A stretch of 64,000 nt of DNA from Frigoribacterium faeni (GTDB taxonomy: Bacteria; Actinomycetota; Actinomycetes; Actinomycetales; Microbacteriaceae). Location of the stretch: NCBI RefSeq assembly GCF_011761235.1, contig NZ_JAAOYW010000002.1, positions 124,001 through 188,000 on the forward strand, given 5' to 3'. The translations under genes were made by a program, and so were the position numbers. The notes beneath the pieces are model-generated. The model did no database searches. It was given only the letters and a program-made list of their open reading frames with translations, and was not told the origin of the DNA. Shown one piece after another: positions 11,149 through 25,320 of this stretch. Position 1 is the stretch's first letter, and each line of letters starts with the position of its first letter.

Positions 11149-11190
11149 CGGGACCGGGACCGGGTCCGGGTCAGGGTCAGGGTCAGGGGG
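11149..11190. repeat. Hexameric tandem repeat downstream of response regulator
   Basis: A run of G3-led hexamers: GGGACC twice, then GGGTCC, then GGGTCA three times, ending in a five-G run. It lies directly after the response regulator stop and before a 12-bp palindrome. Low-complexity GC DNA; I assign no function. Confidence 0.7.
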
Positions 11191-11200
11191 TACTAGTACC
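11189..11200. promoter_or_regulatory. Perfect 12-bp palindrome, candidate operator
   Basis: GGTACTAGTACC is a perfect palindrome about 90 bases upstream of the secreted-protein gene and immediately downstream of the two-component genes. NarL-type regulators bind palindromes of about this size, so it is a reasonable candidate for the response regulator's site. Its position and the locally AT-richer sequence suggest promoter DNA; binding is inference. Confidence 0.4.
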
Positions 11201-11236
11201 AAGGTCCGATGGTGCGCCGTGGCGCCCCCCGCGAGA

Positions 11237-11268
11237 GTGGACGCAGGCCCGGGGGACGGGCCGTCCAC
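11237..11268 (+). promoter_or_regulatory. Leader hairpin upstream of secreted-protein gene
   Basis: GTGGAC...GGCCC pairs with GGGCC...GTCCAC (11 bp with a three-base bulge) just before the ribosome binding site. It could modulate translation or stability; no known riboswitch is recognisable. Confidence 0.35.
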
Positions 11269-11289
11269 CCCCTCCACGAGGAGCTCCCC

Positions 11290-12159
11290 ATGACCACCAC
11301 CACCTTCGGCCGCACGGCCCGCTCGCTCCGCGCCGCGGTGCTCGTCGCCGCCGTCGTCGCCGGGTCGCTCGCCCTCTCGGCCGCCCCGGCCAGCGCCTCC
11401 GGCAAGACCAGCGCCGGCGGCGACTACCGCGTCACGATCGGCAGCACGACCTACGACCCGGCCCCCGGCAAGAGCGTCAAGGTCGGCGGGATCGCCCCGT
11501 CGGGCCGCATCGCGGTCCGCGGCGTCAACAACGGCTTCGACATCGACGTCGCCACCCTCGGCGTCTACGACTACACGCTGACCGGCGCCCCCGACACCCA
11601 GCGCATGGTGACGAAGCCCACCGTGGTCTTCGCCTCCAAGGTGCCGACCCTCACGCCGGCGCAGCTGTCCGGCGCGACGATCAAGAGCCTCGAGATCAAG
11701 GACGACACCCTCGTCGTGCTGTTCAGCACCGCGGGCGGCAAGTTCAAGATCCAGGCGAAGGACGGCGCGCAGGGCGGCATCTTCCAGATGGAGTCCGAGT
11801 TCGGCGCCCCCGTCGAGTTCACGCACACCCTCGGCGCCGGCCTGTTCTACTTCGTCAACCAGTACACGGGCAAGGTCAACTTCGGCGACGGCGTCGACCC
11901 CGTGACCTCCGGCACGGGCGCGCACCAGATGCTGCTCGGCAAGGACAGCCCCCAGGTGGCCGCGAAGACGTTCCAGAGCGGCACCGTCACCAAGTGGCTC
12001 GTCCAGTCGGGCGGACGCCTCGGCGGCGTGCTCGGCGAGGACGCCATCGAGCTGAGCGCGGGCGCCACGAACTGCACGAGCCAGTGCCAGGCCCAGAACC
12101 AGATCCGCGGCTCGCTGCCCGTGCCCCCGCTGCCCACCGACCCGACGCCGATCGGCTGA
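11290..12159 (+). CDS. Secreted protein of unknown family
   Basis: The 289-residue product has a Sec signal peptide with an Arg-containing n-region, a hydrophobic core at about 13-33 and a likely cleavage after the ASA near residue 36. The mature part is predicted all-beta, rich in Gly, Thr, Ser and Lys, unlike the Arg-rich cytosolic proteins around it, and resembles hypothetical secreted proteins of actinobacteria. Near the C terminus NCTSQCQAQNQ holds two Cys three residues apart, followed by a Pro-rich tail. The ATG at 11290 follows GAGGAG by six bases. A 5' leader hairpin (11237-11268) and the palindrome at 11189 precede it, and a strong terminator follows. It may be the output of the adjacent two-component system, but I do not recognise its function. 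Confidence 0.8.
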   Translation: MTTTTFGRTARSLRAAVLVAAVVAGSLALSAAPASASGKTSAGGDYRVTIGSTTYDPAPGKSVKVGGIAPSGRIAVRGVNNGFDIDVATLGVYDYTLTGAPDTQRMVTKPTVVFASKVPTLTPAQLSGATIKSLEIKDDTLVVLFSTAGGKFKIQAKDGAQGGIFQMESEFGAPVEFTHTLGAGLFYFVNQYTGKVNFGDGVDPVTSGTGAHQMLLGKDSPQVAAKTFQSGTVTKWLVQSGGRLGGVLGEDAIELSAGATNCTSQCQAQNQIRGSLPVPPLPTDPTPIG

Positions 12160-12185
12160 CGCACGACGCACGACGCACGACCGCC

Positions 12186-12222
12186 ACGGCGGGCCAGCCC
12201 TCCTCGGGGGCTGGCCCGCCGT
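12186..12222 (+). terminator. Strong hairpin terminator
   Basis: A perfect 15-bp stem (ACGGCGGGCCAGCCC and its complement) with a seven-base loop lies 27 bases after the secreted-protein stop. There is no U-tract. The stretch before it contains three tandem GACGCAC-like heptamers at about 12157-12181. Confidence 0.75.
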
Positions 12223-12247
12223 CGCCGTGCACGCCAGACTCGGGGCC

Positions 12248-12892
12248 GTGAGCACACGCGACCGGGCCGGACGGCCTCCCCGAGGGGGAGCCGCGGCGCC
12301 CCTCTGGGTCGAGACCACCATCCGCGCGCCCCTCGACCGCGTGTGGGAGCTGACGCAGACGCCGACCGAGCACGTCCGCTGGGACCTCCGCTTCAGCCGC
12401 ATCGTGCCCGAGGCCGACCTGCCCGGCGGCGGCTGGCGGTTCCGCTACGAGCGGTCGCTGCCGGGGCACGTCATCACCGGCACCGGGACCTCCCTCGGCG
12501 AGAGGGAGAGGCCCGACGGCACCCGCACCTCCGCCCTCCGCTTCGACACCGCCGACCGCCTCTCGCCCCTCCGCGCCGGACGCGGCTACTGGCGCTACGT
12601 CCCCGTCGCCGACGGCGTGCGGTTCGTGACCGGCTACGACTACGAGCCCGGGTTCGGCCGGCTGCTCGACCGCCTCCTCCGCCCCGTCGTGCTGTGGATG
12701 ACCGCCTGGTCGTTCGACCGCCTGCGCATCTGGGCCGAGACCGGCACCCCGCCCGAGTCGTGGCCGCTCGTCTCCGTGCTCGCCGTCTGGCGGGCCGACC
12801 GCCCGCGGGCCTCCCGCTGCGGCACGACCGCGCCCCGACGCGGCGCGCTCGCCGACGCGCCCGCGACCCTCTCGACCCTGGAGGCACCGTGA
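12248..12892 (+). CDS. SRPBCC (START-like) family protein
   Basis: The 214-residue protein resembles the SRPBCC ligand-binding fold: VETTIRAPLDRVWELTQTPTEHVRWD near the start is the typical first strand-helix unit, then the strands GGWRFRYERSLPGHVITGTGTSL, TSALRFDTADRLSPLRAGRGYWRYVPVADGVRFVTGYDYEP and a long C-terminal helix (LDRLLRPVVLWMTAWSFDRLRIWAE). Such domains bind hydrophobic ligands; the ligand is unknown. The GTG at 12248 is preferred to an ATG seven codons upstream, with low confidence. The DUF4166 gene begins within its stop codon, so the two proteins are probably made together and may act on a common lipid-like ligand. Confidence 0.75.
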   Translation: MSTRDRAGRPPRGGAAAPLWVETTIRAPLDRVWELTQTPTEHVRWDLRFSRIVPEADLPGGGWRFRYERSLPGHVITGTGTSLGERERPDGTRTSALRFDTADRLSPLRAGRGYWRYVPVADGVRFVTGYDYEPGFGRLLDRLLRPVVLWMTAWSFDRLRIWAETGTPPESWPLVSVLAVWRADRPRASRCGTTAPRRGALADAPATLSTLEAP

Positions 12893-13677
12893 CCGTCCTG
12901 ACCGCCGCCGCTGCCCTGCCCGCGCGGCTCCGTCGACGGCTGGGCCGCGCTCGCCGTCGCCCCGCGACGCCTCTCTCGCGCACGTCGCGCCCCACGACGG
13001 GCTCGGTCTTCCGTGCCGCGCTCGGCGACGACTTCGACCGGCTGCACCCGCGCCTCCAGGAGCGCTTCGGCGTCTCCGTCGCCGGCGGCCGGGGCTGCGT
13101 CGGCACGGGCGTCATGACGGAGGTGCGGCGCGGCCCCTGGTGGACGGTGCCTTTCTTGCAGATCGGCCGGCTGCGCAACATCCTCATCGCCGACGTGGGC
13201 CGCGACGTGCCGTTCCGCATCGACAACTGGCCGTACGTCGACCCCTTCGGCCGTGAGACCGTCACGTTCGTGCGCGAGTACCGGGCGCCGGGCCGCCGGA
13301 CGGTCAGCCGGTTCGACGCGACCATGGTGCTCGATCCCGAGCGCGGCACCGTCGTCGACTACCTCGGCACGCACCAGCACCTCGCGGTCGACCTCGACCT
13401 GCGCGTCGAGCACGACGGCTCGCTGCACCTCACCTCGCACGCACAGCGGTTCTACGAGGGGCGGGCGGCGTTCCGGTTCCCGATGACCGCGTCGGGCACT
13501 GCGTCGCTGCGCGAGCGGTGGGACGACGAGGCGGGCGTGTTCCGCATCTCGCTCGAGGTGCACAACCGGCTCTTCGGGTTCCTCTTCGGCTACGAGGGCT
13601 GGTTCACCGCCGAGTACCCGCCGGCCGCCGCCGCGCCGGAGCACGTGCGGCCGCTGCGGCACGAGCCGCGCCTGTAG
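12889..13677 (+). CDS. DUF4166 domain-containing protein
   Basis: The 262-residue protein has a basic Arg-rich start of about 40 residues and then the DUF4166 domain: SVFRAALGDDFDRLHPRLQERFG, GTGVMTEVRRGPWW, GRDVPFRIDNWPYVDPFGRETVTFVREY and FGYEGWFTAEYPP at the C terminus. DUF4166 is found alone or fused to NAD-binding or saccharopine-dehydrogenase-like domains; its own function is unknown. The start GTG overlaps the stop of the SRPBCC gene by GTGA, indicating coupling. It converges with the esterase gene, with a direct-repeat block between them. Confidence 0.82.
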   Translation: MTVLTAAAALPARLRRRLGRARRRPATPLSRTSRPTTGSVFRAALGDDFDRLHPRLQERFGVSVAGGRGCVGTGVMTEVRRGPWWTVPFLQIGRLRNILIADVGRDVPFRIDNWPYVDPFGRETVTFVREYRAPGRRTVSRFDATMVLDPERGTVVDYLGTHQHLAVDLDLRVEHDGSLHLTSHAQRFYEGRAAFRFPMTASGTASLRERWDDEAGVFRISLEVHNRLFGFLFGYEGWFTAEYPPAAAAPEHVRPLRHEPRL

Positions 13678-14794: not shown

Positions 14795-15847
14795 TCAGGA
14801 GGCGGCGGTCGCGCGCCCGAACGAGGGCACCCACCCGATCGCCGGCGCCACGTGCTCGGCCACCGTGCGCAGCAGGCGGGCGTTGTAGTCGACCCCGAGC
14901 TGGTTCGGCACGGTGAGGTGCACCGTGTCGGCCGCCTGGACGGCGGCGTCGGCCGCGAGCTGCCGGGCGAGGACGTCGGGCTCGCCCACGTAGCTCTTGC
15001 CGAAGCGCGACTGCACGCCGTCGAGCATCCCGATCTGGTCGTGCGAGTCGTGCTGGGCGCGGACGCCGAAGTACCGGACGTCCTCGTCGGTCGTGATCGG
15101 GATGACGCTGCGGCTCACCGCGACGCGCGGCTCGCGCTCGTGGCCGGCCGCCGCCCACGCCTCGCGGAACACCGCGATCTGCTCGGCCTGCAGCTCGTCG
15201 AAGGGCACGCCCGTGTCCTCGGTCAGCAGCGTGCTGCTCATCAGGTTCATGCCCTGCTCGCCCGTCCAGCGGGCGGTCGCCCGGGTGCCGGAGCCCCACC
15301 AGATGCGCTCGCCGAGGCCCGGCGAGAGCGGCTCGATCGCGAGCGGGCTCGACCAGCCGGTCATGCGCGGGTCGCTCTGCGCGACGGCCTCGCCGTCGAT
15401 CGCCCGGCGGAACAGGTCCGTGTGGCGGCGGGCCATGTCGGCGTCGGTCTCGCCGTCCTGCGGCACGTGGCCGAACGCCTCGTACCCGCGCAGCGACGAC
15501 TCGGGCGACCCCCGGCTGACGCCGAGCTGCAGCCGGCCCGCGCTGATCAGGTCGGCGGCGGCCGCCTGCTCGGCCATCGAGAGCGGGTTCTCGTAGCGCA
15601 TGTCGATGATGCCGGTGCCGAGCTCGATGCGGCTGGTCCGCGCGGCCATCGCGGCCAGCAGGGGGAACGGGCTGGCCAGCTGCTTCGCAAAGTGGTGCAC
15701 GCGCACGGAGGCGGAGTCGATGCCGATCTCCTCGGCGGCGACGGCCAGCTCGATCGACTGGACCAGCGCCTCCTTCGCGGTGGGGGTGCGGGAGCCGGGC
15801 ACGTCCTGGTAGTGGCCGAACGAGAGGAACCCGATGCGCTTCGTCAT
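14795..15847 (-). CDS. LLM class flavin-dependent oxidoreductase
   Basis: The 350-residue protein matches bacterial luciferase-like monooxygenases. It starts MTKRIGFLSFGHYQD and shows ELAVAAEEIGIDSASVRVHHFA, the SRIELGTGIIDMRYENPLSMAE block, AGRLQLGVSRGSPESSLRGYEAFG near residues 110-130 and the C-terminal GEPDVLARQLAADAAVQAADTVHLTVPNQLG. These enzymes use FMNH2 from a separate reductase, or F420 in some actinobacteria; the cofactor and substrate here cannot be told. The ATG at 15847 gives the usual N terminus; a longer reading passes through the palindrome at 15904. It is divergent from the unknown gene at 16059. Confidence 0.88.
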   Translation of the reverse strand: MTKRIGFLSFGHYQDVPGSRTPTAKEALVQSIELAVAAEEIGIDSASVRVHHFAKQLASPFPLLAAMAARTSRIELGTGIIDMRYENPLSMAEQAAAADLISAGRLQLGVSRGSPESSLRGYEAFGHVPQDGETDADMARRHTDLFRRAIDGEAVAQSDPRMTGWSSPLAIEPLSPGLGERIWWGSGTRATARWTGEQGMNLMSSTLLTEDTGVPFDELQAEQIAVFREAWAAAGHEREPRVAVSRSVIPITTDEDVRYFGVRAQHDSHDQIGMLDGVQSRFGKSYVGEPDVLARQLAADAAVQAADTVHLTVPNQLGVDYNARLLRTVAEHVAPAIGWVPSFGRATAAS

Positions 15848-15903
15848 GTTCCATGCCAACGCATGCACCGGGCCGGGAATTCCGCGCGAGTCGCACCTGC
15901 GTG

Positions 15904-15975
15904 TCGAGGGCGGGCGTTCCGGGCCGAGGGCGGGTCGCCGCCGACCCGCCCTCGGCCCGGAAGACCCGCCCTCGA
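15904..15975. repeat. Long imperfect palindrome, copy 2
   Basis: Two 34-base arms (15904-15937 and 15942-15975) pair with two mismatches around a four-base loop. Its core is nearly identical to that of the palindrome at 529-600, including TTCCGGGCCGAGGGCGGGT. As there, it sits between divergent genes. Such an arm length can extrude as a cruciform or fold strongly in RNA. Confidence 0.88.
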
Positions 15976-16045
15976 CGGACGGGGCGCACGCCGCGACCGG
16001 GCGATCGGCGGCGAGTTCGCAGGTGACGGGACGAGGAGGCGCCGC

Positions 16046-16051
16046 TAGCGT
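16046..16051 (+). promoter_or_regulatory. Putative leaderless -10 (TAGCGT)
   Basis: TAGCGT followed by seven bases and a GTG at 16059; it decides between three in-frame GTG codons at 16050, 16053 and 16059. Confidence 0.5.
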
Positions 16052-16058
16052 GGTGCCC

Positions 16059-16460
16059 GTGGAGAACCGCTTCCGGATCGACGGCGACGACCTCGGGGTC
16101 GACCTGCGCGCCTCCTCGGTGACCATGGGCAGCGACGGGGTCGTCGACGCGACGATCGTCGCCGCCCGGGTGCCCGAGGTGGTCGACTGGTCGGACGACG
16201 CCCCGCGGCTCGAGTTCCGCGACGTGCCCCTGAAGTTCGACGGCGCCACCTTCGGCGTGACGGTCGACGACGACCTGCTCGACGAGCACGACATCTCGTT
16301 CTGGCTCGGCGAGTCGCTCGACGTGCACGGCCAGCTCAGCCTGGCCGCGGGCGAGCGCCTGCGCTTCGTGGGCACGACCCACGTCGCGGGCGAGCCGAAG
16401 GCCTGGCGGGTCGACGTGTCGATCCGGTTCGGGTCGCCGGGGCGCAGCGCGGCCGTCTAG
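16059..16460 (+). CDS. Hypothetical protein
   Basis: I do not recognise this 133-residue acidic protein. It is predicted beta-rich, starting VENRFRIDGDDLGVDLRASS, with repeated short strands (RLEFRDVPLKFDGATFGVTV, DISFWLGESLDVHGQLSL, RLRFVGTTHVAG) and no signal peptide, membrane segment or Cys. GTG 16059 was chosen from the upstream TAGCGT; an AGGAGG further upstream belongs to the dispersed AGGAGGCGC word and could instead serve GTG 16050. It is divergent from the LLM gene and ends 61 bases before pnuC. Confidence 0.6.
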   Translation: MENRFRIDGDDLGVDLRASSVTMGSDGVVDATIVAARVPEVVDWSDDAPRLEFRDVPLKFDGATFGVTVDDDLLDEHDISFWLGESLDVHGQLSLAAGERLRFVGTTHVAGEPKAWRVDVSIRFGSPGRSAAV

Positions 16461-16507
16461 CGCGACCGATCGGTCTGCCCGGTCCTCGCCGGCCCGTGGC
16501 CGCCCCC

Positions 16508-16513
16508 TAGGAT
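16508..16513 (+). promoter_or_regulatory. Putative leaderless -10 of pnuC (TAGGAT)
   Basis: TAGGAT followed by eight bases and the pnuC ATG at 16522. A 10-bp palindrome ACCGATCGGT at 16465-16474 lies upstream where an operator could sit; no known NAD-regulator motif is evident. Confidence 0.45.
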
Positions 16514-16521
16514 CGACCATC

Positions 16522-17151
16522 ATGGGGTGGTTGATCGAGAACTGGAGCGAGGTGCTCGGCTTCGTCACCGGCGCCCTCTGCGTGCTGCTGGCGGCGAGAC
16601 GGAACATCTGGACGTTCCCGATCGGCATCGCGAACAACGTCGTCTTCTTCGTGCTGTTCGCCGAGCACGCGCTCTACGCCGACGCCGGGCTGCAGGTCGT
16701 CTACCTCGTGCTCGGCGTCATGGGCTGGGTCGGCTGGGCCCGCCACCGGGCCGACGACCACCGGGCGCTCGTCGTCCGCACGCCGCGTCGTGCCTGGCTG
16801 CCGCTGCTGCTGGCCGCCGTGGCCGGAGCCGCCCTGCTCACCTGGGTGCTCACCGCCTTCACCGACTCGACGACGCAGGTCGCCGACGCCTCGACGACCA
16901 CGGTCAGCCTCGTGGCGCAGTACATGCTCAATCGGCGGTGGATCGAGAACTGGTTCGTCTGGATCGCCGTCGACGTCGCCTACATCGGCCTCTACCTCGT
17001 CAAGGGCCTCTGGATCACGGGCGCCCTCTACCTGCTCTTCATCGGCCTCTGCGTGACCGGGTTCGTCGGCTGGCGCCGCGCGCGCCGTCAGCAGCAGGCC
17101 GTCGACCCGCAGGAGGCGCGGGTCGCCCAGCCGGCCCCCTCGGCTCCCTGA
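16522..17151 (+). CDS. pnuC: Nicotinamide riboside transporter PnuC
   Basis: The 209-residue inner-membrane protein has seven or so hydrophobic helices and the PnuC signatures: NIWTFPIGIANNVVFFVLF near residues 28-47, VVYLVLGVMGWVGWARH near 65-80, then LNRRWIENWFVWIAVDVAYIGLYLVKGL near 136-163, which contains the WxxxW-type riboside-binding residues. PnuC facilitates nicotinamide riboside entry, trapped by phosphorylation by NadR. The nadR-like gene starts one base after its stop, so they form an operon for NAD salvage. Length and topology are normal; the C terminus is basic and cytosolic. Confidence 0.93.
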   Translation: MGWLIENWSEVLGFVTGALCVLLAARRNIWTFPIGIANNVVFFVLFAEHALYADAGLQVVYLVLGVMGWVGWARHRADDHRALVVRTPRRAWLPLLLAAVAGAALLTWVLTAFTDSTTQVADASTTTVSLVAQYMLNRRWIENWFVWIAVDVAYIGLYLVKGLWITGALYLLFIGLCVTGFVGWRRARRQQQAVDPQEARVAQPAPSAP

Positions 17152-17152
17152 C

Positions 17153-18241
17153 GTGGTCGCCTCCGCCGGCCCGGGGCCCGGGCCGCGCTTCGAGCACGGC
17201 CTCGTCCTCGGCAAGTTCTACCCGCTGCACGTCGGGCACCAGCACCTGGTCCGCACGGCGCTGCAGCGCTGCCGCCGCGTGACCGTGCAGGTGCTGGGCT
17301 CCAGCGTCGAGTCGATCCCGCTCGAGGTGCGCGCCGACTGGCTGCGCGAGGAGCACCCGACCGCGCACGTCGTCGCCGCGATCGACGACGCCCCGGTCGA
17401 CTACGACTCCGACGACGCGTGGGCCGAGCACATGGTCGTCATCGAGGGCCTGCTCGACGCCCCCGTCGACGCCGTGTTCACGAGCGACGAGTACGGGAGC
17501 GAGCTCGCCGACCGGCTCGGCGCCTCCTGGGTGCAGGTCGACCCCGGTCGCGTGCTGCACCCGGTCTCGGGCACCGCCGTCCGGGCCGACCCGGCCGCCC
17601 TCTGGTGGGCGCTCGCCCCCGCGGTGCGGGCGTGGCTCACGCCCCGCGTCGTCGTGCTCGGCGCGGAGTCGACCGGCTCCACGACGCTGGCCGAGGCGCT
17701 GGCCGACCGCCTCGGCACCGCGTGGGTGCCCGAGTACGGCCGGCTGCACAGCGAGGTGCGCGAGGGCGGCCTCGACGCGCCGTGGCGCAGCGACGAGTTC
17801 GACCTGATCGTCGACCGGCAGATCGGCTGGGAGGACGCGGCGCGGCGCCTCGTGCCCCGCCCCTTGCTGGTGTGCGACACCGACGTGCTCGCCACGGCCG
17901 TGTGGCACGAGCGCTACGTCGGCCCGGCGCCGGCCGCGCTCTGGGCCCGGGCGGCCGCGCACCCGCCGGTGCTCTACGTGCTGACGGGCGACGAGATCCC
18001 GTTCGTCGACGACGGCCTGCGCGACGGGGAGCACCTGAGGCACGACATGCACCGGCGGTTCCGCGAAGTGCTCGACGGCCAGTCGGTGCCCTGGACCGAG
18101 GTGCGCGGCAGCGTCGCCGAACGGGTCGAGGCCGTCCTGCCGGCCGTCGAGGAGGCGGTGGCCGGGGCGCTGCGCTTCGCCCTGCCGCTCGAGCAGCGGG
18201 AGCAGGCGGACGGGCCGCGCGGCCCGTCGGCGCGCGGCTAG
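17153..18241 (+). CDS. nadR: NadR-like NMN adenylyltransferase / ribosylnicotinamide kinase
   Basis: The 362-residue protein has the two-domain NadR layout without the N-terminal HTH of enterobacterial NadR, so it is an enzyme only. The N-terminal nucleotidyltransferase domain has GKFYPLHVGHQHLVR near residues 20-34 (HxGH motif) and VFTSDEYGSELA; the C-terminal kinase-like domain begins at about 165. The expected P-loop reads LGAESTGSTTLAEAL near 168-182: the Walker A lysine is replaced by Ser, so kinase activity is uncertain. Further blocks EYGRLHSEV, LLVCDTDVLATAVWHERYVG and a DG-rich end are normal. Coupled to pnuC. Confidence 0.88.
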   Translation: MVASAGPGPGPRFEHGLVLGKFYPLHVGHQHLVRTALQRCRRVTVQVLGSSVESIPLEVRADWLREEHPTAHVVAAIDDAPVDYDSDDAWAEHMVVIEGLLDAPVDAVFTSDEYGSELADRLGASWVQVDPGRVLHPVSGTAVRADPAALWWALAPAVRAWLTPRVVVLGAESTGSTTLAEALADRLGTAWVPEYGRLHSEVREGGLDAPWRSDEFDLIVDRQIGWEDAARRLVPRPLLVCDTDVLATAVWHERYVGPAPAALWARAAAHPPVLYVLTGDEIPFVDDGLRDGEHLRHDMHRRFREVLDGQSVPWTEVRGSVAERVEAVLPAVEEAVAGALRFALPLEQREQADGPRGPSARG

Positions 18242-18244
18242 GCT
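18239..18244 (+). promoter_or_regulatory. Putative leaderless -10 (TAGGCT) overlapping the nadR stop
   Basis: The TAG stop of nadR is the first half of TAGGCT, which ends six bases before the MoxR-type ATPase ATG at 18251. This suggests that the downstream operon has its own promoter. Confidence 0.5.
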
Positions 18245-18250
18245 CGCGCC

Positions 18251-19825
18251 ATGGGGGATCGTTGGAAACGTCTGTCGCAGTCGCCGACCCGTCGGGTCGC
18301 GCCGGGCCCGCCGCACGAGCTCACCGCGGACGACCTGTTCGCCGAGGGCGCGGCCGCGGGCCCCGAGCCGCTCGACGAGAAGCTGCGCCGCGCCTACTAC
18401 TGGCTCGTCAACCAGGCGGTCATCTCGCCGTTCTACGACGTCGAGTTCTCGACGGGCAGCCCGGTGTCGTTCACGCTCGGCGACGCCGGCGCGACGCTCG
18501 ACCTGCCGACCGAGCAGTCGTACTCGTCGAACGTGCTGCTGCCCCTGCTGACGCTCGCGGTCGGCGGCAAGTGCCTGCTCGTCGGCGGGCCGGGCCGCGG
18601 CAAGACGACGCTCGCCGTGCTGATGGGCGTGCTCGCCGGGTCGACGCCGGCCGACGTCCGTCGGCACGTGCAGCAAGGCCAGCCGCAGATGACCGTCAGC
18701 GACCTGGTCGGGCTGCCGCTGCCGCGCGACCTCGTGCAGGCGGCGAGCCTCGACGAGGTCACGGTCGCCTGGCGCGGCTGGCTGACCGAGCCCGTCAAGA
18801 TCGTCGACGAGTACAACCGCATCCCCACGAAGACCCAGTCCGCCCTGCTGACGATGGTCGCCGAGGGCTACGTCGAGAGCCACGACCAGGTGCGGCGGAC
18901 GGCGCCGCCGTCCGGCGTCGAGAGCTGGTTCTTCACGGCGAACGACGACGGGGGCGGCGGCACGTTCCCCGTGATCCAGGCGCTGCGCGACCGGATGGAC
19001 GTCACCGTCGCCGCCCTCGGCTTCAACAGCCGGTTCCTCGACGAGCTCGTGGCCCGGGTCGAGGCCGGCGAGAAGCCCGAGGACCACGTGCCCGCCGAGC
19101 TGGTGCTGACCCCCGACGAGCAGGCGCGCCTGCGGGCCGAGGTGCGGGCCGTGCCGGTGCCGGCGTCCGTCCGCCGCCGGATCGAGTTCTTCGCCAGCCA
19201 CTTCGAGTTCGTGCAGCACGGCGGCCGCCGCTTCGAGTACCGCACGAAGGACACGGTCTCGACCGGGGGCGGCCGCGTGCCCGACGTCGTCGACGAGAAC
19301 ACGGGGGCCGACCTCGCCGTCGACCTCGGCGCCCAGACCGTCAACAGCCTCTCCGTCCGAGCGCTGCAGACCCTGGTGGGCTACGCGAAGGCGATGGCGT
19401 TCTTCCGGGGCCGCGAGACGGTGGGGCTCGACGACGTCGCGGCCGTGCTGCCCTTCGCCCTGCGCGGCAAGCTGCTGCCGAACCCGCAGCACCCGCGCTT
19501 CGACGAGGGCGCCGACCGCGAGCTCTCCGCCGACGCGGTCAGCTGGCTGGCCGACCTCTTCGCCCAGAGCTGCCGCCAGTTCACGGCGCTCGGCCTCGAG
19601 GGCGACGACCCGGTGGCCGAGGTGCTCGCCCAGCTCGCCCGGGGCCTCGACGGCGTCGACCGGGTCGAGGCGTCGCGCCGGCTGACGGCCGTGGAGGCGC
19701 GCATCGCGTCGATCGCCGGCACCGGCAAGCTCTACGGTCGCCACTACGACGACCTGGTCGCGCTGAAGTACGCGCACCAGCGCTACACGGGTTACCTCGC
19801 CTGGCTCGAGGGCGGCTCGTCGTGA
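18251..19825 (+). CDS. MoxR-type AAA+ ATPase
   Basis: The 524-residue protein is a MoxR-like AAA+ ATPase. After a 90-residue N-terminal region (LRRAYYWLVNQAVISPFYDVEF) it has Walker A GGPGRGKTT near residues 113-121, Walker B VKIVDEYNRIPTKTQ near 183, sensor 1 FFTANDDGGGG near 227, and a long alpha-helical lid to about residue 520. It is longer than ordinary MoxR proteins (about 330). Such ATPases act as chaperones on von Willebrand A-domain partners; the vWA protein is encoded two genes downstream. Its stop overlaps the next start (GTGA). Role inferred from the cassette; the target is unknown. Confidence 0.88.
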   Translation: MGDRWKRLSQSPTRRVAPGPPHELTADDLFAEGAAAGPEPLDEKLRRAYYWLVNQAVISPFYDVEFSTGSPVSFTLGDAGATLDLPTEQSYSSNVLLPLLTLAVGGKCLLVGGPGRGKTTLAVLMGVLAGSTPADVRRHVQQGQPQMTVSDLVGLPLPRDLVQAASLDEVTVAWRGWLTEPVKIVDEYNRIPTKTQSALLTMVAEGYVESHDQVRRTAPPSGVESWFFTANDDGGGGTFPVIQALRDRMDVTVAALGFNSRFLDELVARVEAGEKPEDHVPAELVLTPDEQARLRAEVRAVPVPASVRRRIEFFASHFEFVQHGGRRFEYRTKDTVSTGGGRVPDVVDENTGADLAVDLGAQTVNSLSVRALQTLVGYAKAMAFFRGRETVGLDDVAAVLPFALRGKLLPNPQHPRFDEGADRELSADAVSWLADLFAQSCRQFTALGLEGDDPVAEVLAQLARGLDGVDRVEASRRLTAVEARIASIAGTGKLYGRHYDDLVALKYAHQRYTGYLAWLEGGSS

Positions 19826-20565
19826 CGCGGTGGGCCGGCCACGTCGTCGACGACGGGGTCCTGGTCGACGGCAGCGCGCCTCCTCGTCTCGCACCGGGTC
19901 TCGACGCCGACCTGGCCGAGCGCAACACGGGGGAGTGGGGCGGCGACGTCGCCCGGTGGCGACACGTGCTCGGCGCTGCCCTGGCCGCCCAGCGGGCGAC
20001 GTCGCGGCCGGAGGACGGCCACCGCGACCTGTCGGCCCTGGCGGCCTGGCGGTCGGGGGTCGTCGGGCTGCGCGCCGACGCCCTGCGCCGGCTCGACCTC
20101 GCGCTCGCCGGCGGGGGCGACGACCGTCCCGCGCCCGAGGCCGCCGCCGCGGCGCTCGGCCTCGACCCGGCCCACCTCGACGCGTTCGCGTCGGGCCAGC
20201 GCGACGACCCGTTCGCCTGGCCTCCCGGTCGGCCCGGCGACCTGATCGCCCGGGTCGGCGGGTTCCGCGGCCTCGGCGGGCCGTGGCAGGCCCGGCCCCA
20301 GTGGACGACGCCGCTCGACGAGCCCGGCGCGCACGTCCTCTGGGTCGACCCCGAGCCCCTCGGCGACGGGCCTCGTGGGGGCAGCGAGCTCTGGCGGCTC
20401 GACGCCGACGTCTTCGGCCACCGGCTCGTGCTGCTCACCCCCGACGCGCCCGCCGGGGGCGCCGTGCCCGCGGGCGGGGGCCGTCCGGGCGACTCCGGGC
20501 AGGCGCGCTCGGCCGTGGTGCTGCGGTGGTCGAGCTACCTGGCCCTGCTCGTGGCGGCGCCGTGA
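19822..20565 (+). CDS. Hypothetical protein of the MoxR-vWA operon
   Basis: I do not recognise this 247-residue protein. It has a short start (VTRWAGHVVDDGVLVDGSAP), an acidic and Trp-containing middle (ERNTGEWGGDVARWRHVLGAA), then an Ala/Asp-rich helical part with LDLALAGGGDD and a C-terminal beta-rich part (HVLWVDPEP, SELWRLDADVFGHRLVLLTPDA) ending ARSAVVLRWSSYLALLVAAP, hydrophobic enough to be a buried strand or helix. It overlaps the ATPase gene by GTGA and the metallopeptidase-vWA gene by the same four bases, so stoichiometric production with both is likely. An adaptor or accessory subunit is a reasonable guess only. Confidence 0.75.
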   Translation: MTRWAGHVVDDGVLVDGSAPPRLAPGLDADLAERNTGEWGGDVARWRHVLGAALAAQRATSRPEDGHRDLSALAAWRSGVVGLRADALRRLDLALAGGGDDRPAPEAAAAALGLDPAHLDAFASGQRDDPFAWPPGRPGDLIARVGGFRGLGGPWQARPQWTTPLDEPGAHVLWVDPEPLGDGPRGGSELWRLDADVFGHRLVLLTPDAPAGGAVPAGGGRPGDSGQARSAVVLRWSSYLALLVAAP

Positions 20566-22619
20566 GGACGCGCGCGCGGCGGACGGCCCCTCTGGTGCCG
20601 ACCGCCGGGCAGCTCGAGGCCTGGCAGGACGCCCTGGACCTCTGGGGCGTCGCCCTGCACGACCCCGTGCTCGTCGAGGGCGCCGGCGAGGCGTCGTTCG
20701 CGTGGTTCGTGTTCCCCAGCGAGGTGTCCGTCGACCTCGCGCTGCTGGAGGCGGCCGGCGGCGCCGACCACCTCGGGTCCGTCTTCGCCCACGAGATCGG
20801 GCACCACGTGCTCGCCCCCGGCACGCGTCTCGACGAGTTCAAGGTGGTCCACCAGATGGCGCGGGCCATCACGGCCCTCGACGAGTGGTCGGACGGCCGC
20901 GGCGGCCAGGCCGATCTCGGGACGGCGACGCGGCTCGCCAACCTGTGGGAGGACCTCCTGGTGAACGCGCGGGTCGCACGGCTGCAGCGGCGCCGCCTCG
21001 CCGACGCGGGGCGGCCGGGCGAGGAGCCCGACATCGTCGCCCTGTGGCGCCTGCTCAACCGCCCCGGCAGCGAGTCCCCGGCGCTGTGGTGGGTCTACCG
21101 CCGGGCCCACGAGCTCGTCTGGTCGCTGCCCCGCGGCACGTTCTGCGACGTGGCCCCGCCCGACGTGGTCGACGACCAGCAGCGTGCCGACAGGGCCGCG
21201 GGCACGGCGGCGGCGTCCCGGCGGACGGCCCCGGCGGGCGCCGAGCCCACCCTCGCCGAGCAGGCGGCCGAGGCGGAGGCCGACGCGAGGGCCGCCCGCT
21301 CCGAGCTCGCGCGTCTCCGCACGCCGAGCCCCGAGTTCGACGCCGAGTGGCTGGCCGACACGGTGCGGCGCTTCGCCGACGACCCCGTGGGCGGCGCCCT
21401 GCCCGCCGGCACGGTGCTCGCCCCCTACGCCGTGCTCAGGTCGCGCGAGGAGGACCGGCTCCGCGCCGGCGCGTCCCGGGGGGCCGGGACGCCGGGCGCA
21501 GGATGCGGCGGCCAGGCGTCGGACGGCGCCCCGACCCCCGCCGAGGTGGAGGCGGTCCTCGGCGACCCGCGTCTGCGCGCGGTGCCGGAGCACCCCGGGG
21601 TGTCCGCCGCCCGTCGCGCCGCCGAGGAGGCCGCCGCGGCGCGCGGCGAGGACGCCGACGCCGGGGCCGGGGCGTCCGACGGGGACGACGGCGAGGGCGA
21701 GGGCGTCCGGCTCGGCGACGCCCTGGGCAGGTCTCGGGGCGGTTCCGACGGCCAGGCGTACGGACTCGCCGACACCCTCCGGCTCTGGCGCGGCTCCGAC
21801 CGGGACGGCGTCGTCGCGGCCTGGTACCTCGCCGAGGCGCGGCGCTGGGTGCGACCGCTCGTCCAGCCCGCCCTCGTCGGCTCGGCCGCCGACGACACGA
21901 TCCCCGGCGCCCTCGAGTCGTGGCAGCTCGGCGACGACGTCGACGACGTCGACTGGACGGCCACCCTGTCGCGCTCGCCCGTCGTGGTGCCGGGCGTCAC
22001 CACCCGCCGTCGCGACCGGCTCGCCGACGCCCCGCCGCCTCCGGACGAGGGAATCGAGCTCGACCTCTGGGTCGACTCCTCGGGGTCCATGCCCTCGCCC
22101 GAGACCGGGTCCGCCGCGCTGGTCGCCGGCACGATCCTCGTGCTCTCCGTGCTGCGCGGGGGCGGGCGGGTGCGCATCACCTCGTTCTCCGGCCCGGGCC
22201 AGGTCGCCGGGGGATCCCGGCCCACCCGCGACCGGGCCGAGGCGCTGCGCGACCTCACGACGTACTTCGGCGGCGGCACGACGTTCCCTCTCGACCTGCT
22301 CGCCTCGCGCCACCCGGGCACCCGGCTCGACCCTGCCGTGCGACGGCACCTCGTCGTGCTCTCCGACGACGGCCTCGAGTCCCTGTTCGGGCGGGGCCAG
22401 GAGGAGCTGGGCGGCGTGGCGGCCCGCGTGCGCCGGACGCTCGACACAGCCACCCTGGTGCTGCTCGGCACCAGGTCGGGCATCGACGCGCAGGCCGCCG
22501 CCGCGGGCTACGACGTGCGCGTGCTGCCGGGCGTGGCCGACGCGCCCCGCGTCTGCGCCGCGCTCGCGGCCGCGCTGACCGACCCGCCCCGGCGACCGGA
22601 GGAGACCCGTGGCCAGTGA
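20562..22619 (+). CDS. Putative metallopeptidase-vWA protein (DUF2201-like)
   Basis: The 685-residue protein joins two domains. The N-terminal part (1-220) has a zincin-like HEIGHH at residues 77-82 (FAHEIGHHVLAPGTRLDEFK), with LWEDLLVNARVAR near 129 as a possible third-ligand helix; this fits the putative metallopeptidase domain that precedes DUF2201 vWA domains. A long Glu/Ala-rich and Gly/Asp-rich linker (about 230-410) follows. The C-terminal vWA domain has the complete MIDAS motif DSSGSM at about 505-510, the Thr in FGGGTTFPLDLL near 570 and the Asp in VLSDDGLESLF near 603. Partner of the MoxR ATPase. Protease activity is inferred from the motif alone. Confidence 0.85.
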   Translation: MRTRARRTAPLVPTAGQLEAWQDALDLWGVALHDPVLVEGAGEASFAWFVFPSEVSVDLALLEAAGGADHLGSVFAHEIGHHVLAPGTRLDEFKVVHQMARAITALDEWSDGRGGQADLGTATRLANLWEDLLVNARVARLQRRRLADAGRPGEEPDIVALWRLLNRPGSESPALWWVYRRAHELVWSLPRGTFCDVAPPDVVDDQQRADRAAGTAAASRRTAPAGAEPTLAEQAAEAEADARAARSELARLRTPSPEFDAEWLADTVRRFADDPVGGALPAGTVLAPYAVLRSREEDRLRAGASRGAGTPGAGCGGQASDGAPTPAEVEAVLGDPRLRAVPEHPGVSAARRAAEEAAAARGEDADAGAGASDGDDGEGEGVRLGDALGRSRGGSDGQAYGLADTLRLWRGSDRDGVVAAWYLAEARRWVRPLVQPALVGSAADDTIPGALESWQLGDDVDDVDWTATLSRSPVVVPGVTTRRRDRLADAPPPPDEGIELDLWVDSSGSMPSPETGSAALVAGTILVLSVLRGGGRVRITSFSGPGQVAGGSRPTRDRAEALRDLTTYFGGGTTFPLDLLASRHPGTRLDPAVRRHLVVLSDDGLESLFGRGQEELGGVAARVRRTLDTATLVLLGTRSGIDAQAAAAGYDVRVLPGVADAPRVCAALAAALTDPPRRPEETRGQ

Positions 22620-23277
22620 CGAGACGACGACGCCCCTCGGCCGGTGGCTGGCCCGGGGCGACGACGAGCAGGACCTCTGGGGTCGGCTGGTGCCCGGTCC
22701 GAGCGTCGACGACGTCGCCCGCCGGCTCTCCGCCGTGCCCCGCAGCTTCCTCGAGCCCGGGCTCTCGCTGCGGTCCCTCGTCGGCGACGTCCTCGACGAC
22801 CTCGCGCCCGACCCGCTGGGCCAGCTGGCCGGGCCCGCCCGGCGGGCGGCGGACGTGGCGGGCGAGATCGACGAGTCCGGGCACGACGCCGCCCGGCGCG
22901 GGGCGGCCGTGGCGCTCTGGACCTGGGCCAGCCAGGACGAGCTCGGCCCGGCCGAGCCGCGCCTCCTGACCCGGTCGGCCGATCGCGTCCTCGCCGCCCT
23001 CGCCTGGCGACTCGCCCCCGTCGTCGACCCCCGGGTGTGGCTCGCCGACGCCGAGCGGCGCGACGAGGCCGCGAGGTCGCTGCTCTTCTGGGGCGGGCAG
23101 CTGCCCGCCGGCGAGGACGCGGCCACGGCCCGGGCCCTGCTCGAGGCGCGCGACTCGCTGCGCCGCGACCAGTCGCTGTCGCAGGCCCTGGCCGAGCAGC
23201 AGCACCGGCTCGAGGTGATGCGCCGGCTCCGCGAGGCGCGGGCCCGCGAGGCGGCCGCCCGACCGGGGCACGAGTGA
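22609..23277 (+). CDS. Hypothetical protein of the MoxR-vWA operon
   Basis: I do not recognise this 222-residue soluble protein. It is predicted all-helical, with a conserved-looking start (TPLGRWLARGDDEQDLWGRLVPG), a central region of Asp/Ala/Leu-rich helices including WTWASQDELGPAEPRLL and VWLADAERRDEAARSLLFWGGQ, and a strongly charged C-terminal helix (LAEQQHRLEVMRRLREARAREAAA) that could be a coiled coil. The GTG at 22609 follows GGAGGAG by six bases and overlaps the previous gene by 11 bases, so it is coupled to the vWA gene. A structural or scaffold role in the cassette is possible. Confidence 0.72.
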   Translation: MASDETTTPLGRWLARGDDEQDLWGRLVPGPSVDDVARRLSAVPRSFLEPGLSLRSLVGDVLDDLAPDPLGQLAGPARRAADVAGEIDESGHDAARRGAAVALWTWASQDELGPAEPRLLTRSADRVLAALAWRLAPVVDPRVWLADAERRDEAARSLLFWGGQLPAGEDAATARALLEARDSLRRDQSLSQALAEQQHRLEVMRRLREARAREAAARPGHE

Positions 23278-23281
23278 CGCC

Positions 23282-24709
23282 GTGACCGCGCACGCCCCCG
23301 GCGCGGCCGACCCCGCCGCCCTCGACCCCGGCGCCCCCGGCCCCGGCGCCCCCGACCCGGACGCCCCCGACCCGCTCGACCTGGACGAGTACGTGCCGGG
23401 CACCTCCGTCGCCCTCACCGACGACGAGCGCTGGCCGACCCTGACCCCGGAGGGCCGCGACCGCCTCCTCCGCCTCCGCGACCACCCCGCGGCCCCGGCC
23501 TGGGTGCACCGCACCGGCGACCGCCTCACGGCCGAGGGCGTCGAGCGCTCGCGCACGCCCCTCCCGCTCGCCGGCTGGCTCGACGAGCACCTGGCCACGG
23601 CGAGGCGGCTGCCCGCCTACCGTCGCAGCGACCTGCCGCTCGACCGGCTCGACCAGTGGCCCTTCACGACCCGCGACGACCTCGTCGACGACGTCTCGGC
23701 CTTCGTCCCGCTCGACGCGGACCTCGACCTCATGGTTCAGGGCAGCAGCTCGGGCTCGACGGGCCGTGCCCTGCTGATCCCCGACCACGTCGAGGAGGTG
23801 GCGCGCACGTTCCACCTGTACGTCTCGCTCGTCCGCGACCTCGGCGTCGACTGGCGGCCCGACCCCGACCGCATGGCGCTCGCCCACGTGGTGCACCAGC
23901 GGCAGGCCTTCACCTACGCGTCGGTGCTGAGCGGCTTCGGGCAGGCGACGACGGCGAGGGTCAACCTGCACCCCGGGCAGTGGGGCGCGCCGGGCCGGCG
24001 GGCGGCCTTCTTCGCCGACCAGCGGCCCCAGGTGGTCAGCGGCAGCCCGACGAGCCTCGCCGAGCTGCTGCAGCCCGACCTGGCGGGGCTGCTGCGCCCG
24101 CTCGCGCTCTTCTCGGGAGCGACCGCGCTCTCCGCGCCGCTGCGCGCCGACCTCGAGGCCGCGTTCGACTGCCCGGTGATCGACGTCTACGGGCTGCACG
24201 AGACCCGGCCGATCGCGGTCAGCTCCGACGGGGGCCCGCACGTCGTGCTCGACCGGCGGCTCGTCGTCGAGGTCGTCGACCCGGCCGGGGCGGCCGTCGC
24301 CCCGGGGGAGCGGGGCGAGATCGTCGTGACGGCCGGCGAGAACCCGCTGCTGCCCCTCGTCCGCTACCGGACGGGCGACTTCGCGCGGCTCGTCGACGTC
24401 GACGGCCGGCCCGCGCTGGCCGACCTCGAGGGCCGCGACCCCACGGTCTTCGCGCACGGGGACGGCTCGCTCGTGCCCTGCATCGACCTCACCCAGCACC
24501 TGCAGGCCGCCCGGTGCCGGGGCTGGTCGGTGCACCAGGACCGCCGAGGCGCGGTGCGGGCCGTCGTCGTCGGCGGCGACGCCGAGATGGTCCGGTCGCG
24601 CCTCGGGGCGATGCTCGGGCGCCTGGTCGACGTGCGCCGGGTGCCCACGCTGCTCGACCTCGGCGAGGGCAAGCCGCGACGCTACGTGTCGGAGGCGACG
24701 GCGAGCTGA
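23282..24709 (+). CDS. PaaK-like adenylate-forming enzyme
   Basis: The 475-residue protein belongs to the AMP-forming (ANL) superfamily, closest to phenylacetate-CoA ligase-like and capsule-associated CapK-type enzymes. After a Pro/Asp/Ala-rich leader of about 45 residues it has LPLDRLDQWPFTTRDDL (the family's lead-in), the phosphate-binding loop QGSSSGSTGRALLIP near 149-163, the A5-like DVYGLHETRPIA near 302, and the A8-like VRYRTGDFARL. The C-terminal subdomain is short, ending GEGKPRRYVSEA. It should activate a carboxylate as an acyl-adenylate; acceptor and CoA use are unknown. Four bases after the previous stop, last gene of the MoxR operon, which is unusual company for such an enzyme. 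Confidence 0.83.
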   Translation: MTAHAPGAADPAALDPGAPGPGAPDPDAPDPLDLDEYVPGTSVALTDDERWPTLTPEGRDRLLRLRDHPAAPAWVHRTGDRLTAEGVERSRTPLPLAGWLDEHLATARRLPAYRRSDLPLDRLDQWPFTTRDDLVDDVSAFVPLDADLDLMVQGSSSGSTGRALLIPDHVEEVARTFHLYVSLVRDLGVDWRPDPDRMALAHVVHQRQAFTYASVLSGFGQATTARVNLHPGQWGAPGRRAAFFADQRPQVVSGSPTSLAELLQPDLAGLLRPLALFSGATALSAPLRADLEAAFDCPVIDVYGLHETRPIAVSSDGGPHVVLDRRLVVEVVDPAGAAVAPGERGEIVVTAGENPLLPLVRYRTGDFARLVDVDGRPALADLEGRDPTVFAHGDGSLVPCIDLTQHLQAARCRGWSVHQDRRGAVRAVVVGGDAEMVRSRLGAMLGRLVDVRRVPTLLDLGEGKPRRYVSEATAS

Positions 24710-24743
24710 CCCGCCGGGTCGTGGCCGAGGAGGCGCGAGCAGG

Positions 24744-24749
24744 CAGGAT
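24744..24749 (+). promoter_or_regulatory. Putative leaderless -10 (CAGGAT)
   Basis: CAGGAT followed by seven bases and the ATG at 24757, the same hexamer as at 509-514 and 666-671. It favours this ATG over one nine bases upstream. Confidence 0.4.
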
Positions 24750-24756
24750 GGACCGC

Positions 24757-25164
24757 ATGAGCCCCCGACGCACTCGCCCCGCACCCCGGGGCACCGACCG
24801 CCGCACCGCCCTCCTGCTCGCCGCGGCCTGCGGGGTCTCCGGCGTGCTGCACCTCGCGCGCCCCGCGGTCTACGACGCCGTCGTGCCGCGCAGCATGCCC
24901 GGCCCCGCCCGGTTCTGGACGACGAGCTCGGGCCTCGCCGAGGTCGTCGTGGCGGGGGCGCTCGCTTCGACCGCGACACGGCGGGCGGGCGGCCTGCTCG
25001 CGGCGGCGCTCTTCGTCGCGGTGTTCCCCGCGAACGTCTCGATGGCCCTCCGCGCGCTCGGCAGCGGCCGGGCCGGGACGGCGCGCCGGGTCGTCACGGC
25101 GGCCCGCCTGCCGCTGCAGGTGCCGCTCGTCGCGGCCGCCCTCCGGGTGGGTCGCGCCTCCTGA
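24757..25164 (+). CDS. DoxX-like membrane protein
   Basis: The 135-residue protein has about four hydrophobic segments (TALLLAAACGVSGVLHLARP, FWTTSSGLAEVVVAGALAS, GLLAAALFVAVFPANVSMAL and LPLQVPLVAAALRV) and the DoxX-like pattern GVLHLARP ... FWTTSSGLAEV ... VFPANVSMAL. DoxX-family proteins sit in the membrane and are linked to redox chemistry or thiosulfate oxidation, but most actinobacterial members have no known role. It stands between the MoxR operon and pxpA, with its own promoter-like hexamer. The basic N terminus (SPRRTRPAPRGTDRR) favours an inside N terminus. Confidence 0.78.
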   Translation: MSPRRTRPAPRGTDRRTALLLAAACGVSGVLHLARPAVYDAVVPRSMPGPARFWTTSSGLAEVVVAGALASTATRRAGGLLAAALFVAVFPANVSMALRALGSGRAGTARRVVTAARLPLQVPLVAAALRVGRAS

Positions 25165-25190
25165 CCGGCGTCCTCCCCGGTCGGTGCCGG

Positions 25191-25196
25191 TACCGT
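25191..25196 (+). promoter_or_regulatory. Putative -10 of the pxp operon (TACCGT)
   Basis: TACCGT lies 27 bases after the DoxX-like stop. The pxpA ATG is 124 bases downstream, so the transcript should carry a leader of about 118 bases, GC-rich and without a recognisable riboswitch. Confidence 0.4.
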
Positions 25197-25320
25197 GGAC
25201 GATCGACCGCGTGACGGCCGCCGCCCGGCGGCGGCCCGACCGGCCCGACCACGAGCGACCACGACGACGCACGACGCGTCGCGGGGTCCGACGCACGACC
25301 CGGCCGAGGGGAGGCCCCGC

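Follow-up and report, generated by a model that had tools for sequence, protein, structure and literature searches.

A MoxR, metallopeptidase-vWA and PaaK-like gene cassette of Frigoribacterium faeni is a conserved unit that mostly travels with PnuC and NadR

We analysed a 64,000-nucleotide stretch of the 3.2 Mb genome of Frigoribacterium faeni (contig NZ_JAAOYW010000002.1, positions 124,001 to 188,000; hereafter the window), in which five closely packed genes, A to E, encode a MoxR-type AAA+ ATPase (A), a metallopeptidase protein with a von Willebrand factor A (vWA) domain (C), a PaaK-like acyl-adenylating enzyme (E) and two proteins from families without a recognised fold (B and D). An earlier, sequence-only reading had placed a coupled five-gene cassette at 18251–24709, and all five reading frames are indeed open and intact there. 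The tight packing it described is equally evident, with GTGA overlaps at the A/B and B/C junctions, an 11-base overlap of C and D, and a gap of 4 bases between D and E. The coupled and conserved unit is borne out by the comparisons given below, although its boundary had been drawn too tightly, as the contiguous and co-conserved genes for PnuC and a NadR-like protein had been missed; these lie 1 base apart, with 9 bases between NadR and A. Genes A to E form a conserved operon-like unit that mostly comes with PnuC and NadR as a seven-gene module. That A to E are conserved as a unit is near certain, and the PnuC–NadR pair is the strongest functional clue to them. The genes and their motifs in the window are as follows (bracketed powers of ten are E-values).

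16522–17151, + strand: PnuC, nicotinamide riboside transporter family, 209 residues (Pfam NMN_transporter, 1.2e-53; NCBIfam TIGR01528 over cut-off)
17153–18241, + strand: NadR-like protein with nicotinamide mononucleotide (NMN) adenylyltransferase and ribosylnicotinamide kinase-like domains, 362 residues (TIGR01526, 4.4e-49, under cut-off; AAA_28, 1.5e-29)
18251–19825, + strand: A, MoxR-type AAA+ ATPase, 524 residues (AAA_3, AAA_lid_2)
18584–18607, + strand: Walker A motif GGPGRGKT in A (pattern fits 81 of 81 full-length A proteins)
19822–20565, + strand: B, unknown protein with a helical N-terminal half and a beta C-terminal half, 247 residues (AlphaFold predicted local distance difference test score, pLDDT, 90.1)
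20562–22619, + strand: C, metallopeptidase-vWA protein, 685 residues (weak M48 and VWA_2 matches; HExxH and metal-ion-dependent adhesion site, MIDAS, residues invariant)
20790–20807, + strand: HEIGHH metal-site motif in C (HE-x-GH in 78 of 78 C proteins)
22074–22091, + strand: DSSGSM MIDAS motif in C (DxSxS in 78 of 78 C proteins)
22609–23277, + strand: D, unknown all-helical protein with a C-terminal tail of fixed length, 222 residues (AlphaFold pLDDT 93.8)
23282–24709, + strand: E, PaaK-like acyl-adenylating enzyme of the ANL superfamily, 475 residues (AMP-binding, 1.1e-9; DVU_1553-family model, 5.1e-22, under cut-off; PaaK structures in the PDB)
23744–23764, + strand: ATP-binding loop SSSGSTG in E (G158 and G161 invariant in 34 rows)
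24365–24379, + strand: YRTGD motif in E (Y-[RD]-T-x-D in 74 of 74 E proteins)

The single shared promoter-like element that had been proposed for the five genes was not confirmed. A scan for sigma-70-type promoters over positions 16000–25000 returned 0 sites and shuffled sequences likewise gave 0.0, so that the scan carries little weight in the G+C-rich DNA of the window; as the NadR stop codon lies 9 bases before the start of A, a promoter just upstream of A would sit within NadR. A search for RNA elements over 15800–25300 gave one sub-threshold match to an L31 leader within A (E-value 0.19) and no other match at an E-value of 1 or below.

To follow the gene set across genomes, A was scanned against genome contigs and 80 loci were kept of 84 confirmed relatives. 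Genes were then called with a simple codon-based caller in 82 loci (these 80, L013 and the window, the distant L007, L010 and L011 being excluded), and tblastn was run with all seven proteins. A is full-length in 81 loci, that of L098 having been called short, and in these 81 we find B in 80, C in 77, D in 71, E in 73, NadR in 58 and PnuC in 56; a few genera account for many of the loci, so the counts are not independent. All of A to E were called in 67 loci, with NadR in 51 and PnuC in 51 of them. Some of the misses reflect contig ends or failures of the caller, as 5 of the 10 loci without a called D (L035, L036, L045, L049 and L067) show it by tblastn, and the D called in L047 is an aberrant fragment. 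The spacing is as tight as in the window, with median gaps of –4 to –8 bases between neighbours within A to E, –4 from PnuC to NadR and +9 from NadR to A. The nearest of the 80 named loci, that of Frigoribacterium sp. ACAM 257, is syntenic and its A is 93% identical. By this comparison of neighbourhoods and co-occurrence the PaaK-like gene, in 73 of 81 loci, is not a chance neighbour, and as the set is conserved in two phyla a chance arrangement is very unlikely.

The placement of the salvage pair differs between the two groups. In the linked actinobacterial loci PnuC and NadR stand upstream of A, and in four gammaproteobacterial loci (L093, L095, L096 and L097) they follow E, with gaps of –4, –1, –4 and –4 bases, respectively. 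In 229 genomes of the class of genome G276, a profile of C finds the protein in three (G276, G660 and G813) and NadR is present in nine, all three C genomes included, with two of the nine matches covering the kinase half only; in G660 and G813 the genes for E, PnuC and NadR are consecutive with overlapping frames. With the central genome G276 left out, both C genomes are NadR-positive (hypergeometric P = 0.0011, uncorrected for relatedness and based on the few top candidates of each genome). A sample of 394 actinomycete genomes, with the best three candidates per genome scored for A and the best five for NadR, holds A in 3 and NadR in 34 (P = 0.0069 with the own genome left out, likewise uncorrected). 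A survey of 149 genomes, the own one among them, places close homologues of A in three (G000, G119 and G218) and those of NadR and of E in exactly these three, and in a phylum sample of 119 genomes a close A is found in the own genome only, five others being weak. The 23 loci without NadR comprise 3 that are cut by a contig end (L070, L085 and L092), 2 from Lysobacterales (L094 and L104) and 18 actinobacterial ones. A search of 13 genomes found NadR in 11, namely 2 linked controls (L095 and L096), G272, where a contig end truncates the cassette, and 8 actinobacterial genomes whose cassettes are unlinked; in all of these last 8, which stand for 8 of the 18 such loci, NadR lies elsewhere with PnuC beside it. 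Conversely, ten loci fetched from NadR-bearing actinomycetes contained none of A to E by tblastn. No gene family other than the seven is shared by more than 19 of the 82 gene-called loci.

The domain identities given by the sequence-only reading held for A and E, which are MoxR-type and AMP-binding, respectively, over the Pfam cut-offs, whereas C reaches only sub-threshold Pfam matches. A matches AAA_3, AAA_lid_2 and AAA_5, all over cut-off, and its P-loop together with D186 and E187 is invariant in 27 aligned rows; by AAA_3, AAA_lid_2, the P-loop and the catalytic acidic residues the protein is assigned to the MoxR clade. In Pfam, C gives M48 at an E-value of 0.011 and VWA_2 at 0.032, so its assignment rests on its motifs and on their conservation. 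Both motifs that had been reported as intact, HEIGHH and DSSGSM, are present; H77, E78, H81, N127, D131 and N135 are invariant in 36 rows, as are the MIDAS residues D505, S507, S509, T573 and D602, and D131 is a putative metal ligand. A vWA partner with MIDAS residues adjoins the MoxR gene, as C is found in 77 of the 81 loci with a full-length A, the vWA domain being weakly supported by Pfam. No effector domain was found after the vWA domain in C, whose vWA motifs reach residue 602 of 685 in the window protein, and across 36 C members Pfam returned M48 (7), VWA_2 (1) and DUF7782 (1) and nothing else. Our patterns for Walker B, GGGTFP, ALRDR, NLWSDLLIN, the A5 motif of E and the NMN adenylyltransferase motif were too narrow, and their low counts are not used.

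Membership of E in the ANL superfamily is indicated by the AMP-binding match over cut-off (window protein), the ATP-binding loop and the YRTGD-type and GR motifs; in L096 the AMP-binding match of E falls below cut-off. G158, G161, E307, Y362, T364, D366 and R385 are invariant in 34 rows, and the presumed A10 lysine is a lysine in 61 of 74 proteins by a rough pattern. E aligns with PaaK and the DVU_1553-family AMP-dependent ligase across the adenylation core, but scores far under both equivalog cut-offs (51.7 bits against 646.3 for PaaK and 78.4 against 300 for the ligase model). The proposal that an activated acyl group is attached to a target is still plausible given these conserved core residues; the conflict role attached to that proposal is unsupported.

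B and D yielded little to domain searches. For the window proteins Pfam gave no match to B and only DUF4826 to D (E-value 0.14); among 50 B members the best E-value was 0.012 with no family in more than one member, and among 45 D members 0.016 with no family in more than two. AlphaFold models of both proteins, a check suggested with the original observation, are of high confidence (pLDDT 90.1 for B and 93.8 for D), and Foldseek found nothing in the PDB at an E-value of 0.001 or below. A Foldseek search of viral structure models, made with B only, gave no match at the same limit, and profile searches of PDB sequences reached E-values of 0.094 for B and 0.1 for D at best. The top Foldseek matches of B are small-heat-shock-like, with a probability of only up to 0.28, and we do not believe them. 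The tail of D is of fixed length: the last nine residues begin E-[AS]-[AVS] in 70 of 71 complete D proteins, the exception, L072, having E-A-T at that place. At the fourth-last position 61 of the 71 proteins have Tyr, 2 have Trp and 2, the window D among them, have Pro, and 56 of the 71 end in Glu. Part of this terminal Glu is due to the overlap of D with the start of E, yet the tail keeps its length in 17 loci without that overlap. A rule by which Trp or Tyr near the end would mark D as a substrate of a radical S-adenosylmethionine (SAM) enzyme was not supported, since Trp also occurs in G813, whose cassette has no radical SAM gene, and the window D has neither residue.

The PnuC call is firm (TIGR01528, 87.3 bits against a cut-off of 42.45), and the NadR-like protein has the domain order of the family, an NMN adenylyltransferase followed by a ribosylnicotinamide kinase-type domain (TIGR01526 over residues 14–319, 4.4e-49; AAA_28, 1.5e-29). 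A lysine in the kinase P-loop (GK[ST]) is a defining feature of NadR. Such a GK[ST] is found in 4 of 59 cassette NadRs (L093, L095, L096 and L097), and the other 55 fit a variant P-loop pattern. In actinobacterial copies the P-loop reads GAESTG[ST]T, with Ser or Thr for the Lys of the gammaproteobacterial cassette copies, in cassette and non-cassette proteins alike (L105–L122 and the window); loss of the lysine as a trait of the cassette was therefore rejected. The window pair resembles PnuC–NadR nicotinamide riboside salvage in having both genes with their family domains, and differs from it in its coupling to a remodelling and adenylation unit and in the replacement of the P-loop lysine in the actinobacterial copies matched. 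In a same-class genome in which no cassette was found (L115:6126-9572), PnuC–NadR is followed by Nudix-like and ADP-ribosylglycohydrolase-like proteins, as read by eye, which is another NAD-related partnership.

A midpoint-rooted NadR tree was built from 23 cassette-linked rows (21 chosen of 59 called, with G660 and G813) and 26 unlinked ones, of which L146, L148 and L150 carry a long-branch warning. An actinobacterial clade (support 100/99) contains 17 linked and 2 unlinked rows, and all six rows of a gammaproteobacterial clade (support 100/100) are linked; the linkage label changes 4 times on the tree, 3 of them forced by well-supported branches, against a mean of 16.6 for shuffled labels. 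The NadRs of the tested cassette genomes with an unlinked copy fall elsewhere in the tree. The two linked clades together with the opposite gene order suggest that PnuC–NadR was recruited to A–E at least twice.

A further partner is seen in five gammaproteobacterial loci (L092, L093, L134, L141 and L142), where a radical SAM-like protein of 308–322 residues is encoded between C and D. Family scans of two of these proteins gave Radical_SAM (2.3e-14 and 2.6e-14). Aligned with one another, the five display CxxxCxxC, then C-x12-G-x4-C, and cysteines near the C terminus, a pattern that we take to resemble Twitch/SPASM. The protein matches PADLOC viperin profiles over its N-terminal half only and scores 50–55 bits on the NCBIfam viperin model, whose cut-off is 180, so these matches are read as generic radical SAM. 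In Lysobacterales (L094, L104, L141 and L142) the module is split into A–B and C–radical SAM–D(–E): in G273 and G274, A and B stand at one place (B of G274 by eye only) and C, the radical SAM gene and D at another, with E following D in G274 and not in G273. A distant MoxR and metallopeptidase-vWA pair (family f20) occurs in three genomes of the same phylum (L130, L131 and L132; C profile 7.7e-37 on the one tested), without a NadR match, and B, D and E went undetected in the stretches examined; A–C may be an old core to which B, D, E and PnuC–NadR were added. In L130 and L131 the distant pair is followed by a 281-residue protein without a Pfam match (one copy scanned), which was rejected as a form of B or D at an hhalign probability below 1% for both, from a query profile of two rows that are 79% identical.

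Known MoxR-vWA systems share parts of this arrangement. Kaur et al. 2020 (PMC7159879), in the portions of the text available, set out four MoxR-vWA ternary systems as proposed conflict systems, some of which include a metallopeptidase, a radical SAM-SPASM enzyme and a protein whose C-terminal peptide is conserved. The parts run closely parallel, with a MoxR ATPase, a vWA co-chaperone and a dedicated third component, but here one protein carries both the metallopeptidase and the vWA domain, a PaaK-like enzyme is present and PnuC–NadR usually accompanies the set, and the variable effector fusions of the vWA proteins described there were not found here. Pfam families and PDB folds of an inactive STAND, FtsH or beta-propeller third component were not seen in B or D, in a comparison made without profiles of VMAP, the other such component. 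Group 2.2 jumbo phages carry a MoxR gene with a vWA protein bearing an N-terminal metallopeptidase domain, a pair proposed for virion assembly (PMC7824862); the available part of that paper names no B, D, E, PnuC or NadR-like partner, and searches of the phage collection with A and C yielded no relative within their limits. In NorQ–NorD a MoxR ring also drives a vWA partner acting on a target, while a peptidase site, an acyl-adenylating enzyme and NAD salvage genes go unmentioned in the accessible sections of PMC9976466 and PMC13036017. Literature searches on MoxR with NadR/PnuC, phenylacetate-CoA ligase or radical SAM, and on PnuC/NadR with von Willebrand or AAA ATPase, preprints and most subscription papers lying outside their scope, turned up no description of the module and no described MoxR-vWA family that already contains this ligase. 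We infer that the module would be a MoxR-vWA system of a new type, one that remodels, cuts or acyl-modifies a target and is tied to the supply of nicotinamide adenine dinucleotide (NAD).

A functional link of A–E to NAD is likely. The fuller reading that we put forward, a machine for remodelling and modification that NAD salvage would supply, is tentative, and as a whole we would place it somewhat short of an even chance. A would form a MoxR ring and C would act as a vWA co-chaperone whose MIDAS site grips a target protein while A drives it, with the N-terminal metallopeptidase domain of C cutting or opening that target. E would convert a carboxylic acid to an acyl-adenylate, from which the acyl group might pass to coenzyme A (CoA), a thiol or a protein of the complex. 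B and D may be dedicated subunits or adaptors, the length-fixed tail of D perhaps serving as a docking or modification site. In some Gammaproteobacteria a radical SAM enzyme with Twitch/SPASM-like cysteines would take part in the same pathway. The product could be a matured protein or a protein-bound cofactor that needs NAD to be formed or used, with PnuC and NadR replenishing this NAD from nicotinamide riboside.

Several observations weigh against this reading. The window NadR scores 167.5 bits on TIGR01526 against a cut-off of 341.15, and its kinase P-loop lacks the lysine and reads GSTT, for which reasons its own activity is not certain; on the lysine criterion it is here named NadR-like. 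In 5 of 74 E proteins an Arg stands in for the presumed A10 lysine, and 8 others depart from the pattern or are unscorable. The 18 actinobacterial loci without NadR in the fetched stretch come from Agreia (5), mycobacteria (11) and Schumannella (2), and 31 of the 34 NadR-bearing actinomycete genomes gave no A. The Lysobacterales genomes G273 and G274 have cassette genes and no NadR match, also with a second NadR query, so the NAD link is not obligatory and the core can exist without NadR. The radical SAM gene, finally, is absent from the window, L095–L097, G813 and the printed actinobacterial loci.

Two of these points also favour a looser view, that PnuC–NadR is ordinary nicotinamide riboside salvage standing by chance before a separate protein quality-control operon: the many NadR-bearing actinomycetes without A, and the cassette genes without NadR in two Lysobacterales genomes. 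We consider it rather unlikely, as the pair is placed on opposite sides in two phyla with overlapping reading frames and the cassette-linked NadRs form two clades, and PnuC–NadR is found elsewhere in all eight tested actinobacterial genomes with unlinked cassettes. A and C might instead be a cofactor or metal-insertion chaperone of the NorQD/CoxDE type that matures one NAD-linked enzyme encoded elsewhere, with E a small-molecule CoA ligase making part of the cofactor. Known MoxR-vWA pairs act in this way (NorQD, PMC9976466 and PMC13036017; PMC7159879 for a list of pairs, as far as its accessible text goes), and the Walker and MIDAS motifs of A and C are intact; however, C has an intact HExxH that is not mentioned for NorD in the available parts of those two papers, and with no gene family outside the seven in more than 19 of 82 loci, no linked target enzyme stands out. 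This account is a real though minority possibility.

The sequence-only reading had also raised biological conflict. In such a system nicotinamide riboside salvage would restore NAD after an attack by phages or other bacteria, and A–E would degrade or modify invader proteins. Its patchy distribution (A in 1 of 15 other genomes of the genus) and the proposed conflict role of the described ternary systems (PMC7159879, in its available portions) speak for it. Against it, PADLOC 2.0.0 returned nothing significant for A–E, its only matches being TRIP13 (E-value 0.011) and GajB (0.033) on A over 22–23 residues each; A matches nothing in phages and a single plasmid protein (33% identity, 29% of the query covered), C has no match in phages or plasmids, and no viral-contig candidate encodes a relative of A. 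The same three neighbour gene families recur in 10 mycobacterial loci (their order was read in L046 and L047), which suggests an established position. With no systematic defence-island test run, these results give the conflict role no positive support, and we regard it as quite improbable.

A more specific form of the machine proposed above would have the module make a protein-derived or protein-bound cofactor or conjugate, with D as the scaffold. The A–C machine would present the tail of D, the radical SAM enzyme, in loci that have it, would modify that tail, E would acylate or activate it and C would cut it, and the product would work with the NAD from PnuC and NadR. It draws on the tail of D with its usually aromatic residue fourth from the end and its usual terminal Glu; the Pro at the aromatic place in the window D, and the Trp form in one genome without radical SAM in the cassette, count against it, and we hold it to be a long shot. 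If true, it would form a new class parallel to the pathways of pyrroloquinoline quinone (PQQ), of mycofactocin or of FxSxx proteins. MoxR-vWA machines occur widely, many of them without an assigned target; the one described here is accompanied by a dedicated adenylating enzyme and two protein families of no recognised fold, and in two phyla by a pair of NAD-salvage genes. The gene set is found in cultured bacteria and offers a metabolic handle on the role of such machines, with nicotinamide riboside, a vitamin B3 derivative, going in, NAD coming out, and an activated acid.

Two departures from the usual gene order were seen among the loci. In Mycolicibacterium houstonense (L047:5740-7794 and 11177-13068) a full-length C lies upstream of A and the place of C and D is taken by fragments, one with a C-like start and a D-like end, which points to a rearrangement or an assembly problem. 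In Oerskovia (L079:5560-8859 and L080:5609-8909) two extra genes, of 105 and about 940 residues, stand between NadR and A.

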